Part shown: piece after piece, positions 2,015 through 36,634 of the stretch | How positions within the stretch are numbered: position 1 is the first letter of the stretch | Layout of the letters: every line of letters starts with the position of its first letter | Source of the DNA: an uncultured Actinomycetes bacterium | GTDB lineage: Bacteria; Actinomycetota; Actinomycetes; Actinomycetales; Microbacteriaceae | DNA length: 38,326 bases | Direction: 5' to 3' | NCBI GenBank assembly: GCA_903920435.1 | Contig: CAIXMB010000130.1 | Coordinates: forward strand, 1 to 38,326 | Notes under the pieces: generated by a model | The model's input: the letters and a program-made list of their open reading frames with translations, nothing else | Database searches by the model: none | Told to the model about the DNA's origin: nothing | Program-made: the position numbers and the translations under genes

Positions 2015-2020
2015 TAAACT
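2015..2020 (+). promoter_or_regulatory. -10 TAAACT of a leaderless mnmA promoter
   Basis: TAAACT ends exactly 6 nt before the GTG at 2027, so the expected transcription start is the first base of mnmA. No Shine-Dalgarno sequence is visible. Spacing and hexamer are identical to those of ligA. Confidence 0.65.
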
Positions 2021-2026
2021 CGTCGG

Positions 2027-3139
2027 GTGAAGGTTCTCGCGGCGATGAGTGGGGGAGTGGACTCCGCCGTCGCCGCCGCGCGCGCCGTCGACGCGGGCCA
2101 CGAGGTCGTCGGCGTGCACCTGGCCCTGAGCCGGATGCCCGGCACCCTCCGCACCGGAGCACGGGGCTGCTGCACCATCGAGGACTCGATGGACGCGCAG
2201 CGCGCCGCCAACATCATCGGCATCCCGTACTACGTCTGGGATTTCTCCGAGCGGTTCCGGGCCGACGTCGTCGACGACTTCATCGCCGAGTACTCCGCCG
2301 GCCGCACCCCCAACCCGTGCATGCGCTGCAATGAGCGCATCAAGTTCGCCGCACTCCTCGAGAAGGCGCTCGCGCTCGGCTTCGACGCCGTGGTCACCGG
2401 ACACTACGCGAAGGTTCTCACCGACGCGGACGGCAATCGCGAGCTCCATCGGGCGTCGGCGTGGGCGAAGGACCAGAGCTACGTGCTCGGGGTCCTGACC
2501 ACGGAGCAGCTCGCGCACGTCATGTTCCCGCTGGGGGCGACTCCGTCGAAGGAGGAGGTGCGCGCCGAGGCCGCCGCGCGCGGGTTCAGCGTCGCCACCA
2601 AGCCCGACTCCCACGACATCTGCTTCATCCCCGACGGCGACACGCGCGGCTGGCTCGCCGACAAGGTGGGGGCCGAGCAGGGCGACATTCTCGACCGCGA
2701 CGGCGCCGTGATCGGGCAGCACGAGGGGGCGCTCGCCTTCACGATCGGGCAGCGCAAGGGTCTCAACGTGGGCTACCCGACCGACGACGGCAAGCCGCGC
2801 TTCGTGCTGGAGATCCGTCCGAAGAGCAACGAGGTCGTCGTGGGCCCGCGGGAGGCGCTCGCGATCGGCGAGCTCGCCGGTACGAAGTACAGCTGGGCGG
2901 GCATCCCACCGCTCGACGCGGCGACGCCGTTCGCCTGCGACGTGCAGGTGCGCGCGCACGCCGACCCGGTGCCGGCCAGCGCGGTGTTGCGCGACGGCGA
3001 GCTGGTGATCACGCCCGTGGAGCCGATCGTCGGCCTCTCACCGGGCCAGACCGCCGTGCTCTACGTCGGAACGCGCGTGATCGGGCAGTGCACGGTCGAT
3101 CGCACGGTCTCCGCGGTGCCTGTCGGAGCCCATCCGTAA
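2027..3139 (+). CDS. mnmA: tRNA-specific 2-thiouridylase MnmA
   Basis: Cytoplasmic enzyme that activates U34 of Lys, Glu and Gln tRNAs with ATP and inserts sulfur to make 2-thiouridine. 370 residues, the usual length. The N-type ATP pyrophosphatase P-loop SGGVDS is at residues 8-13; the catalytic cysteines are in NPCMRCN (Cys98) and DICF (Cys199); the C-terminal beta domains carry TIGQRKG and the LSPGQ segment. The GTG start is supported by the leaderless promoter and by the family N-terminus ([13 protein letters not shown]). Sulfur probably comes from the cysteine desulfurase upstream. The stop codon TAA is also the first half of the ligA -10. Confidence 0.97.
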
Positions 3140-3142
3140 ACT
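3137..3142 (+). promoter_or_regulatory. -10 TAAACT of a leaderless ligA promoter, overlapping the mnmA stop
   Basis: TAAACT, 6 nt, then GTG at 3149. The first three bases are the mnmA stop codon TAA. ligA can thus be transcribed on its own despite abutting mnmA. Confidence 0.65.
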
Positions 3143-3148
3143 GGGGCT

Positions 3149-5365
3149 GTGGCCGAGAGCGAAGTCCAACAGCATGCCGACGCAGACCTGACCGCCGCGA
3201 AGGCCGAGGTCGATGCGCTCACGATCCGCGTGATCGAGCTGCGCGACGCCTACTACGAGCGCGACGAAGAACTCGTGAGCGACGCCGAGTACGACCGGAT
3301 GATGCGTCGGCTCGACGAGCTCGAGCGCATGTTCCCCGAGCTGCAGAGCCAAGACAGCCCCACCCAGACCGTGGGCGGTCGCGCGGCCACCCTCTTCGAT
3401 CCCGTCACCCACGCCGAGCGCATGCTCTCGCTCGACAACGTCTTCTCGATCGACGAGTTCACCGCCTGGGCGGCGAAGGTCGAGCGCGACTCCGGCCGCC
3501 GCGTCGACTACCTCTGCGAGCTCAAGATCGACGGCCTCGCCATCAACCTGCGCTACGAGAACGGCCGCCTTACGAGCGCGGCGACCCGCGGCGACGGTGT
3601 CGTGGGGGAGGACGTGACCGAGAACGTCAAGTTCATCAACGGAATCCCCGCGCGGCTCGAGGGCGAGGGGCACCCGCCGCTCGTCGAGGTCCGTGGCGAG
3701 ATCTTCTTCCCGGTGGAGGCCTTCAAGGCGCTCAACGCCGAGCAGGCGGCCGCGGGCGAGAGGGTGTTCGCGAACCCGCGGAACGCGGCATCCGGCTCGC
3801 TGCGGCAGAAGTCCGAGGGCAAGAACGAGGCGGGCCTCGACCTCATGCACCGGCGTCTTTCCCGGCTACGGATGCTCGTGCACGGCATTGGCGCCTGGGA
3901 GAACCCGCCCGTGGCCTCGCAGAGCGAGACCTACGCGCTGCTCAAGAGCTGGGGACTGCCCACGAGCGAGTACTTCCGGGTGGTGAAGACCGCGGAGGCG
4001 GCCGTCGAGTTCATCGAGTACTACGGCGAGCACCGCGATTCGGTCTCGCACGAGATCGACGGCATCGTCATCAAGGTCGACGAGCTGTACCTGCACGAGG
4101 AGCTGGGAGCCACGAGCCGCGCCCCGCGCTGGGCCATCGCCTACAAGTACCCGCCAGAGCAGGTGAACACGAAGCTGCTCGACATCGTGGTCTCGGTCGG
4201 GCGCACGGGCCGTGCGACACCGTTCGCCGTCATGGAGCCCGCGCGCGTCGCCGGCTCCGTGGTGCGGCAGGCCACCCTCCACAACCAGGACGTCGTCAAG
4301 GCCAAGGGCGTGCTCATCGGCGACACGGTGGTGCTGCGGAAGGCGGGTGACGTGATTCCCGAGGTGCTCGGCCCGGTTGTCGAGCTGCGCGACGGCACCG
4401 AGCGCGAGTTCGTCATGCCCACCAACTGCCCGGAGTGCGGCACGCCCCTCGCCCCCGCCAAGGAGGGCGACATCGACCTGCGTTGCCCGAACTCCCGCAG
4501 CTGCCCCGCTCAGGTGCGCGGGCGGGTCGAGCACGTCGGCAGCCGTGGCGCACTCGACATCGAGGGCCTCGGCGAGGTCGGCGCGGCCGCGCTCACCCAA
4601 CCCGATTACCCGGAGGTGCCGCCCCTCGTCACCGAGGCGGGACTCTTCGCCCTCACCCTCGACGACCTCGTCGACATCCGGGTGGGAGTGCGCGACCGTG
4701 AGACCGGCCTGCGCACGGGCCGCACCGAGACGCCGTACCAGCGCAAGCGCAAGAAGGGCGACCCCGAGGGGCACGACGGCTTCGTGCCGTCGAGCGCCGC
4801 GACCAAGCTGCTCGACGAGATCGAGAAGGCCAAGACCAAGGAGCTGTGGCGCATGCTGGTGGCGCTCAGCATCAGGCACGTGGGCCCGGTAGCAGCACGC
4901 GCGCTCGCGAACTACTTCGGGTCGCTCGACGCGATCCGGGCGGCCACTCGCGAGGAGCTTGCCGCGGTCGACGGCGTGGGCGGCATCATCGCGGATGCCC
5001 TCATCGAGTGGTTCGCGGTCGACTGGCACCAGGAGATCCTCGAGCAGTGGGCGGCGGCGGGCGTGCAGTTCGCCACACCGGGGCATCCGGGGCCGGGCGC
5101 CGCGGCATCCGTCGACGGTCCGCTGGCCGGTCTCACGGTGGTCGCAACGGGCAGCCTGGAGGGGTTCACGCGCGAGGGCGCGCTCGAGGCGATCATCGCC
5201 GCCGGCGGCAAGGCCGCGTCGAGCGTGAGCAAGAAGACCGACTTCGTGGCGGCCGGCCCGGGTGCCGGTTCGAAGCTCGGCAAGGCCGAGGAATTGGGCG
5301 TGCGCATCATCGATGCGGCCCAGTTCGCGCTGCTCCTGAAAGAGGGCCCTGCGGCGCTCGACTGA
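3149..5365 (+). CDS. ligA: NAD-dependent DNA ligase LigA
   Basis: Essential replicative and repair ligase that seals nicks through an enzyme-AMP intermediate made from NAD+. 738 residues. In order: the Ia NAD-binding domain (YY...SDAEYD near residues 31-50), the nucleotidyltransferase domain with the AMP lysine in ELKIDG (Lys126), EVRGEIFF, the OB domain, a four-cysteine zinc finger (CPECG...[10 protein letters not shown], about 429-452), helix-hairpin-helix repeats, and a C-terminal BRCT domain (about 655-735). It is longer than the roughly 670 residues of E. coli, mainly through a charged insert near residues 510-550 ([20 protein letters not shown]) between HhH elements; from memory a longer form is common in actinobacteria. 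The GTG start is supported by the leaderless promoter. Confidence 0.97.
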
Positions 5366-5382
5366 CGCACAGCCGCCATTCA

Positions 5383-35801: not shown

Positions 35802-35807
35802 GACCCC

Positions 35808-35813
35808 ATTGTG
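35808..35813 (-). promoter_or_regulatory. -10 CACAAT, leaderless, alpha/beta hydrolase gene
   Basis: Minus strand CACAAT, 6 nt, ATG at 35801. Only 38 bp separates this start from the divergent GTG at 35840. Confidence 0.45.
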
Positions 35814-35827
35814 TCGGCTGCCGGTCG

Positions 35828-35833
35828 TACCCT
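35828..35833 (+). promoter_or_regulatory. -10 TACCCT, leaderless, nuclease-candidate gene
   Basis: TACCCT, 6 nt, GTG at 35840. Confidence 0.55.
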
Positions 35834-35839
35834 GCCAAC

Positions 35840-36634
35840 GTGCCGGAGCATGTCGAGACCTGGTGGGCGCGTCGCCAGTGGTCGAAGGGCGCCCGCGTGC
35901 CCTACCCGGTGGGGTCGTACCGCGAGTTCTGGGAGACCTACCCCGTGCTCGTCAACCAGTACCACCCCGACCTCAACTTCGGCATCGTGCTCTCGCAGGT
36001 GCCGCCCGCCGCCGATGTGTGGCTGCTCTGGCAGTGCGACATGGGCCATGTGTTCGTGGCGACGCCGACCGAGCAACGGCTGCGCCCGGGTCGCTCGCGC
36101 CGCCGATCGATCTGGTGCCCCGAGTGCACGGGCTTGGCCGGCGCCGGCCGGCCCAGTAAGCCGAAGGCGACGTTGTGCGCGCGGTCGATCGCGGAGGAGT
36201 ACGTCGTGGGGGAGGCGTTCCACAGCGAGTGCGCGCCGCGCCCGGCCTCGGCGGCGGAAGACCTGCTGCGCCAGAAACTGCTGGCGCGCCTGCCGCTGAC
36301 CGAGTCCAACGCCGTGCGCGTGCCCCGGCCGTTCTTCACCCACCTCGAGGTCTGGCCAGACATCGTGCTGCCCGACCTGTGCGTGGCGATCGAGTACGAC
36401 ACGACCGGGCGGGACGGGCTCGAGCACGTCGGCAAGCGCGAGCTCGTCGACATCCGTAAAGACCGCCTGCTGCGCGCCGCCAAATGGGAGGTGGTGCGCG
36501 TGCGCACCGGCAAGCTCAAGCCGATCGGCCCGTACGACGTGTCGGGCGGAACCTCGGGCCGCACGGTCGACCGCGTGCTCGACAGGCTGCGCGAGATCCG
36601 GGGCGATCTCATCGTCAACGCGTGGCTCGCGTGA
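35840..36634 (+). CDS. Treble-clef zinc-finger and Vsr/DUF559-like nuclease-fold protein
   Basis: 264 residues. The N-terminal half has a Trp- and Cys-rich treble-clef/zinc-ribbon (WLLWQCDMGHVFVATPTEQR, then SRRRSIWCPECTGLAG), with Cys, His, Cys, Cys as likely zinc ligands. The C-terminal half (about 135-240) fits a Vsr-type PD-(D/E)xK nuclease core: SAAEDLLRQKLLARL helix, a strand with WPDIVLPDL, AIEYDTTGRDG, HVGKRELVDIRKDRLLRAAK, and the strand WEVVRVRTGK. Similar fusions are known as predicted DNA-binding nucleases. No methylase or helicase neighbour was seen, so it is not a recognisable restriction system. Activity inferred only. Confidence 0.75.
   Translation: MPEHVETWWARRQWSKGARVPYPVGSYREFWETYPVLVNQYHPDLNFGIVLSQVPPAADVWLLWQCDMGHVFVATPTEQRLRPGRSRRRSIWCPECTGLAGAGRPSKPKATLCARSIAEEYVVGEAFHSECAPRPASAAEDLLRQKLLARLPLTESNAVRVPRPFFTHLEVWPDIVLPDLCVAIEYDTTGRDGLEHVGKRELVDIRKDRLLRAAKWEVVRVRTGKLKPIGPYDVSGGTSGRTVDRVLDRLREIRGDLIVNAWLA

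Follow-up and report, generated by a model that had tools for sequence, protein, structure and literature searches.

What does it mean that, in a 38,326-nt contig of an uncultured Microbacteriaceae bacterium (GenBank CAIXMB010000130.1; the whole stretch is called the window below), start codon after start codon lies the same short distance downstream of a hexamer resembling a −10 promoter element? An earlier note on this DNA had listed 17 start codons with such a hexamer exactly 6 nt upstream and read them as widespread leaderless transcription. Our analysis of the window, a larger sample of the same genome and its relatives indicates that TANNNT boxes of apparently housekeeping kind very probably start transcription on the start codon itself, giving leaderless mRNAs. 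RNA polymerase would be placed by the −10 box to begin on the first base, A or G, of the start codon, and the mRNA, its 5′ end being RTG (R, A or G), would be translated without a Shine-Dalgarno (SD) sequence, a layout predicted for about 25% of the called genes of this genome. At 68–69% G+C the TA of the box would be scarce and at times used twice, either as the stop codon of the upstream gene (TAG or TAA) or as a TA common to two divergent leaderless boxes.

Promoter-like boxes at start codons in the window

Scanning both strands of the window for TANNNT-N6-RTG at the opening of an open reading frame (ORF) of at least 60 codons returned 15 starts, at 2027, 3149, 12675, 15470, 29319, 30845, 31932, 33337 and 35840 on the plus strand and at 15373, 17805, 18691, 27889, 29231 and 33240 on the minus strand. 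The pattern occurred 16 times in all, whereas 200 dinucleotide-shuffled sequences had 4.11 ± 1.96 occurrences and never more than 11; between 0 and 30 nt, spacings other than 6 each had at most five sites. At 0.42 sites per kb the window is denser than most sampled stretches of the same genome. All 17 start codons named earlier were recovered, 15 behind a strict TANNNT and two behind weaker boxes (GACAAT-N6 before ATG 11014(−) in the DUF222/HNH ORF and CACAAT-N6 before 35801(−)), and the scan also located the three starts given a 7-nt spacer, 9637(−), 18710 and 26671. For MnmA and the DUF2277 protein, the two starts compared, the Pfam profiles align from residue 1. The putative boxes are listed below by position and strand.

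2015–2020, +: −10 box TAAACT of mnmA, N6, GTG 2027 (from the scan; Pfam tRNA_Me_trans from residue 1)
3121–3142, +: ligA promoter TGTCGG-N10-TAAACT (−10 box at 3137–3142), N6, GTG 3149
3137–3139, +: TAA of the ligA −10 box, which is the mnmA stop codon
9645–9650, −: −10 box TAGGCT of the NIPSNAP gene, N7, ATG 9637
11021–11026, −: weaker −10 box GACAAT of the DUF222/HNH gene, N6, ATG 11014
12663–12668, +: −10 box TAGAAT of gatB, N6, GTG 12675; TAG is the stop of the EamA-type gene 11685–12665
15380–15385, −: −10 box TACATT of a gene whose protein has no Pfam match, N6, ATG 15373
15458–15463, +: −10 box TACACT of an ECF-type sigma factor gene, N6, ATG 15470
17812–17817, −: −10 box TACGCT of the RibD_C gene, N6, ATG 17805
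18697–18703, both strands: 7-mer TAACGTA, read as TACGTT-N6-ATG 18691 (−, NYN-LOTUS) and TAACGT-N7-GTG 18710 (+, unnamed gene)
26658–26663, +: −10 box TAACGT of the 26671 gene, N7, ATG 26671; TAA is the stop of the GH1 gene 25485–26660
27896–27901, −: −10 box TACAGT of the DUF2277 gene, N6, ATG 27889
29238–29243, −: −10 box TATCAT of marR, N6, ATG 29231
29307–29312, +: −10 box TATCTT of the MFS gene, N6, ATG 29319
30833–30838, +: −10 box TAGGGT of an esterase-type hydrolase gene, N6, GTG 30845
31920–31925, +: −10 box TAGCCT of an orphan MLTR_LBD gene, N6, ATG 31932
33247–33252, −: −10 box TATTCT of a helix-turn-helix (HTH) regulator gene with MLTR_LBD, N6, ATG 33240
33325–33330, +: −10 box TACTTT of the SDR gene, N6, ATG 33337
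35808–35813, −: weaker −10 box CACAAT of a hydrolase gene, N6, ATG 35801
35828–35833, +: −10 box TACCCT of the 35840 gene, N6, GTG 35840

A spacing peak across the genome

Is the 6-nt spacing a property of the genome? Counts were made in 61 stretches including the window (905,450 of 3,164,108 bases, with 6,189 masked), namely the window, a first set of 20 stretches, 34 stretches from every third contig and six picked otherwise; our own coding-score caller found 887 genes in this sample, to which the figures below refer unless another source is named. Counted without gene calls, TANNNT preceded ATG 135 times at 6 nt and 53 times at 7 nt, against a mean of 13.6 (standard deviation (sd) 3.4) at 12–60 nt, and preceded GTG 64 and 43 times at these distances, against a mean of 23.0 (sd 5.7), while neither TTG (14 at 6 nt; mean 9.9, sd 3.5) nor CTG (16; mean 20.9) showed a peak there. 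For ATG alone, the whole genome holds 396 TANNNT-N6 sites and 101 matches to the reversed pattern. The count by distance that the earlier note had proposed thus yields, in these 905 kb, the expected sharp peak at 6 nt, together with a smaller one at 7 nt. Ranking all 64 hexamers of the form XY...Z by their 6- or 7-nt excess placed TA...T at 6 nt on top, a table on which we do not rely because codon phase raised many other hexamers too.

Among called genes, the box lay 6 nt upstream of the start in 162 and 7 nt upstream in 57, no gene being counted twice, and every other spacing from 0 to 20 nt accounted for 1–14 genes; the resulting 219/887 still includes background. The estimate that over a third of the genes carry the box therefore holds in the window (15 strict sites among about 38 genes in our own count) and falls to about a quarter in the sample. 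The box stood at 6 nt before 81 of 1,221 early in-frame RTG codons and before 4 of 3,335 late ones.

Features that the search pattern did not select point the same way. The 161 N6 sites examined have G at −5 in 60%, C at −1 in 58% and G as third box base in 54% (31% for all TANNNT), and no −35 signal was found among them; a G two bases past the −10 box is a known contact of sigma region 1.2. An SD-like 4-mer was present before 8 of 218 boxed genes and before 250 of the 629 others, with 81 of 850 for internal control points. Classed by called upstream neighbour (gap limits of 0 and 30 nt correspond to 3 and 33 in the script, which included the three stop-codon bases), the box was carried by 111/258 genes with a divergent neighbour, 53/228 in tandem at more than 30 nt, 46/144 in tandem at 1–30 nt and 3/195 in tandem abutting or overlapping. 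Box placement follows the need for a promoter. The leaderless reading is therefore supported by a peak where the transcription start site (TSS) would coincide with the start codon, by restriction to ATG and GTG, by scarcity of SD sequences and by a box that tracks promoter need. Spacing, codon restriction and SD scarcity are direct properties of the sequence, from which we infer the RNA start itself, the sigma factor and leaderless translation.

Stop codons that would double as the next −10 box

Three genes of the window begin 9 or 10 nt past the previous stop codon, and in each the stop provides the TA of their box (mnmA–ligA, EamA–gatB and GH1–26671); a stop that is the TA of the next box fixes the intergenic gap at one of these two lengths. 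At 9 nt, all 18 tandem pairs of the sample had TAG or TAA as the upstream stop and none had TGA, which makes up 383 of 852 stops overall, and the T completing TANNNT was present in 17 of the 18. With starts as chosen by the caller, this fusion (TAR followed by the T) was found in 17/18 pairs at 9 nt and in 15/180 at other gaps of 2–60 nt, 10 excluded (p = 6e-15); taking all candidate starts, it was found in 45/509 pairs at other gaps of 2–60 nt, 9 and 10 excluded. Nine nucleotides was moreover the commonest gap between 2 and 20 nt among chosen starts (18 pairs; next 12), and at 10 nt 7 of 11 chosen starts were fused. Each of the 24 fused starts had been picked by the caller on coding score alone.

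The every-third contigs by themselves gave fusion in 7/7 pairs at 9 nt versus 7/78 at other gaps. Corresponding figures were 4/4 at 9 nt and 3/6 at 10 nt versus 8/70 elsewhere in Salinibacterium soli, 2/2 and 1/5 versus 1/47 in Tessaracoccus, and 3/3 versus 6/66 at ligA loci (36 of 80), a count that is not independent. Seen from the box, 65 N6 genes have the stop of a tandem upstream gene at −60 to 100 nt; this stop lay exactly at the TA in 17 of them, other positions having at most four each, and did so in 7 of 23 comparable N7 genes. The preference for G as third base makes the commonest form of the box open with a TAG triplet.

Literature searches for a stop codon acting as a promoter, covering titles and abstract openings of the papers listed, returned no report, and the passages retrieved by keyword on leaderless genes, codon recoding and stop codons contained none. 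Should the fusion be real, a TAG or TAA stop (not TGA) followed by a 9-nt gap would mark an internal promoter inside an apparent operon: mnmA–ligA and EamA–gatB are operon-like pairs, yet their promoter seemingly lies within the stop codon. The origin or persistence of promoters at gene ends in G+C-rich genomes would thereby become testable.

Divergent genes sharing one TA

Can the TA also be shared between strands? The sample contains 25 divergent leaderless pairs with starts at most 200 nt apart, 14 of them with starts 18–33 nt apart. Five of the 25 share a single TA (ANNNTANNNT; start distances 23, 24, 24, 24 and 25 nt) and two share TANNNTA (18 and 19 nt). In sequence, these seven pairs have the form of a bidirectional promoter, in which −10 boxes of opposite strands overlap and the divergent starts stand 7–25 bp from each other. 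Sharing one TA between two divergent boxes fixes the start codons 23–25 nt apart. The five shared-TA pairs encode ten proteins, nine of them with a Pfam match; these pairs (loci L012, L009, L010, L017 and L139) include an IMPDH-family gene with an aminotransferase gene and an AIRS-domain gene with a DUF3515 gene.

Across 80 genomes of the family, searched for the sequence pattern only and regardless of the genes on both sides, the 23-nt layout occurred 189 times versus 50 for the reversed pattern (higher in 62 genomes, lower in 7, equal in 11), and a mis-spaced control, counted in both orientations, occurred 138 times (69 per orientation), a number matched by the 140 of its reversed form. The 24-nt layout gave 274 (137 per orientation) versus 172 reversed. 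The 18-nt TANNNTA layout was dropped as an enriched class (1 versus 1 control in the own genome; 75 versus 91 reversed in the 80), and no clear excess of it appeared across a 246-genome table of the phylum, read by eye. As this form is not enriched, the window pair NYN-LOTUS 18691(−)/18710(+), with starts 19 nt apart on one TAACGTA, is taken as a single case, the searches having covered the 18-nt form.

The shared-TA layout is thus enriched over mis-spaced controls, as judged by pattern counts, and would represent a known bidirectional device that here sets two start codons. Warman reportedly described bidirectional promoters with symmetric −10 boxes in 2021. We regard the shared TA as that known device reused for start codons, since in E. 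coli bidirectional promoters with a symmetric −10 the divergent starts lie mostly 18 bp, and also 10 and 23 bp, apart (PMC12825309, PMC10268837; papers are cited here and elsewhere from excerpts). The 23-bp form has the shared-TA geometry seen here, whereas the 18-nt form, mostly used there, is the one without enrichment. Unlike those promoters, both divergent products here would be leaderless coding mRNAs, so that the start codons themselves stand at that spacing. The sharing geometry is observed; that TA scarcity is its reason, or that sharing brings any benefit, would be interpretation.

Relatives and other Actinobacteria

The best LigA matches were metagenome-assembled genomes of Rhodoglobus (86%) and Salinibacterium (84%), which would place the organism in Microbacteriaceae. 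In S. soli, 57 of 365 genes had the box at 6 nt and 25 at 7 nt, with 11 more at 8 nt (N8), and in Tessaracoccus the counts were 31 and 17 of 310. By neighbour class (divergent, tandem above 30 nt, tandem 1–30 nt, abutting or overlapping), boxes were found in 38/102, 26/104, 15/62 and 1/79 genes of S. soli and in 20/94, 20/93, 4/38 and 2/60 of Tessaracoccus. In every one of 26 named genomes TANNNT-N6-ATG was commoner than its reversed control, by 1.2-fold to 5.6-fold, and a survey of 246 genomes of the phylum, an unsummed table, showed a strong excess in some (for example 282 versus 38 in G240) and none in genomes rich in chance matches (940 versus 992 in G061), which are presumably A+T-rich. 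TAG made up 44% of stops (374/852) in the own sample, its shares in the samples of Tessaracoccus and Streptomyces being 16% and 25%.

The predicted ligA promoter and its probable history

Which came first at ligA, the box or the fusion? Of 53 loci examined, 26 had an N6 box at a candidate start of ligA, and several relatives have TACACT or TATGCT in this position. Eighteen relatives combine a ligA box with an mnmA stop no more than 300 nt away; among these, mnmA ends 43–123 nt upstream in 16 (14 TGA, 2 TAG) and 263 nt upstream in one, and is fused (TAG) in one (L029); the window is fused with TAA. As mnmA mostly ends well upstream of the ligA box, the promoter probably preceded the fusion, with mnmA later extended into the box and stopping there. 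Conservation of the box is what the loci display, and the order of events is our reconstruction.

The ligA promoter also carries a motif further upstream. GTC[AG]G-N10-TANNNT before RTG at 6–7 nt occurs at ligA in the window and in 23 of 80 relatives (among L021–L059), as a raw count. In the window it reads TGTCGGag-N8-TAAACT and fits the core of the PafBC (RecA-NDp) promoter consensus tTGTCRgtg-8 nt-TannnT (PMC5656591), the first t and the gtg part varying. Eleven Streptomyces and Streptacidiphilus loci have TTGTC[AG]GACC...TAG[CT]GT or similar about 180–260 nt upstream of where the ligA match begins, and the own genome encodes two adjoining WYL domains on contig C24, candidates for pafB and pafC at the domain level only. 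A PafBC-type motif at a leaderless ligA promoter suggests that the main ligase of Microbacteriaceae may be under DNA-damage control. According to an excerpt, a mitomycin study in M. tuberculosis used LigA as its control protein, so DNA-damage control of ligA may differ between lineages. Two other readings of GTCGG were ruled out: as a −35 box it lies 10 nt from the −10, where the PafBC −26 motif fits better, and as conserved mnmA coding sequence it fails since 17 of 18 relatives have their mnmA stop further upstream. A similar arrangement, TGTCGG-N10-TACCCT-N6-GTG at 35812–35833, precedes the 35840 gene, whose product has a weak, below-cutoff DUF4379 match.

Alternative explanations

The double use of TA may involve no selection at all: because TA is rare in G+C-rich sequence, boxes would simply persist or arise where a stop codon or another box already supplies one. 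We give this explanation a somewhat better than even chance, and the wider spread of the ligA box than of the ligA fusion (17 unfused relatives, one fused) speaks for it. Much more tentatively, we propose that in leaderless-rich Actinobacteria a stop codon may routinely serve as the −10 of the next gene in a selected, fixed-length junction, TAR NNT N6 RTG. The downstream start codon would then be usable in two ways: its own promoter would yield a leaderless mRNA, and on a read-through transcript the ribosome terminating 9 nt upstream would re-initiate. Between selection and mere availability of fused junctions we lean towards availability.

As to the start site, transcription might begin 1–3 nt ahead of the codon and leave very short leaders, above all in N7 genes. 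The 57 genes of the N7 shoulder and the 11 N8 genes of S. soli would fit such leaders, but the main peak lies at 6 nt, where the purine of the codon would be +1, and C is preferred at −1; we consider this possible, although doubtful, and keep to transcription starting on the codon.

It is very improbable that the fusions are really overlaps of stop codon and SD sequence, as published for other bacteria at short gaps (PMC2784483), since an SD-like 4-mer is present in just 1 of 24 fused junctions of the own sample, 1 of 7 of S. soli and 0 of 4 of Tessaracoccus, and the sole 9-nt pair lacking the T is TAAggag, itself SD-like. That the TAG or TAA of TANNNT is only an upstream stop, the peak reflecting a preferred intergenic distance and no promoter, would account for the stops lying exactly at the TA but is scarcely credible, given that only 17 of 162 N6 genes are fused, that 49 of 162 have C or T as third box base, where no stop codon is possible, that several relatives keep TACACT or TATGCT at ligA, and that the boxed genes with divergent neighbours exclude it as a full explanation.

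Several points weigh against the reading as leaderless starts and fused junctions. Sixteen of the 20 first-set stretches lie on contigs whose pattern matches were already known, and the first set and the window together hold 72 ATG-N6 sites in 405 kb, a higher density than the 63 in 500 kb of the remaining stretches. The gene caller is unvalidated and misses small genes, with only 237 genes called in 400 kb of Streptomyces. The peak is weak in Streptomyces (5 genes at 6 nt and 8 at 7 nt, of those 237) and in Arthrobacter (11 and 4 of 143), whose samples contain 0/1 and 0/0 stop fusions at 9 nt respectively. The discriminator bias is weaker in fused N6 sites (G at −5 in 8/17, C at −1 in 7/17), and at ligA a fusion is seen in only one of the 18 relatives compared.

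Relation to known systems

TANNNT with its first T about 12 bp upstream of the start is an established mark of leaderless genes, which average 19.2% (2.3–29.8) in Actinobacteria (Zheng et al., 2011; PMC3160421). The TA-led leaderless genes of that study, from Actinobacteria and Deinococcus-Thermus, have the same N6 TANNNT, and since such genes are already known across Actinobacteria, our core finding is a further, Microbacteriaceae case of a known phenomenon; sharing of the TA with stop codons or divergent boxes, present here, does not appear in the excerpted passages of that paper. Searches pairing leaderless with Microbacteriaceae returned no title on leaderless genes of this family.

TSS mapping agrees with the earlier statement that leaderless mRNAs are common in mycobacteria and corynebacteria: TANNNT recurs in both groups; in M. 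tuberculosis there is no conserved −35, and among genes assigned a primary TSS about a quarter are leaderless (PMC3898074), and in C. glutamicum 33% of mRNAs are leaderless and start only with AUG or GUG (PMC3890552). The RTG codons ATG and GTG both work on leaderless mRNA in mycobacteria (PMC4633059). Those sets were measured, whereas ours is predicted. The −10 elements adjoining ORFs in Deinococcus-Thermus (PMC12340547), which are experimentally validated, share TANNNT and a spacing need in another phylum; the term 'stop codon' has no occurrence in the main text of that paper. In the published stop/SD overlaps, as in the junctions described here, the stop codon also belongs to the signal that initiates the next gene, this signal being an SD sequence there and apparently a promoter box here.

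This genome adds a case in which the promoter would reveal the start codon, making annotation correctable without RNA data. As a minor observation, the orphan MmyB-like ligand-binding-domain gene (31932–32450) lies tail to tail with the HTH regulator gene carrying the same domain (32422–33240).

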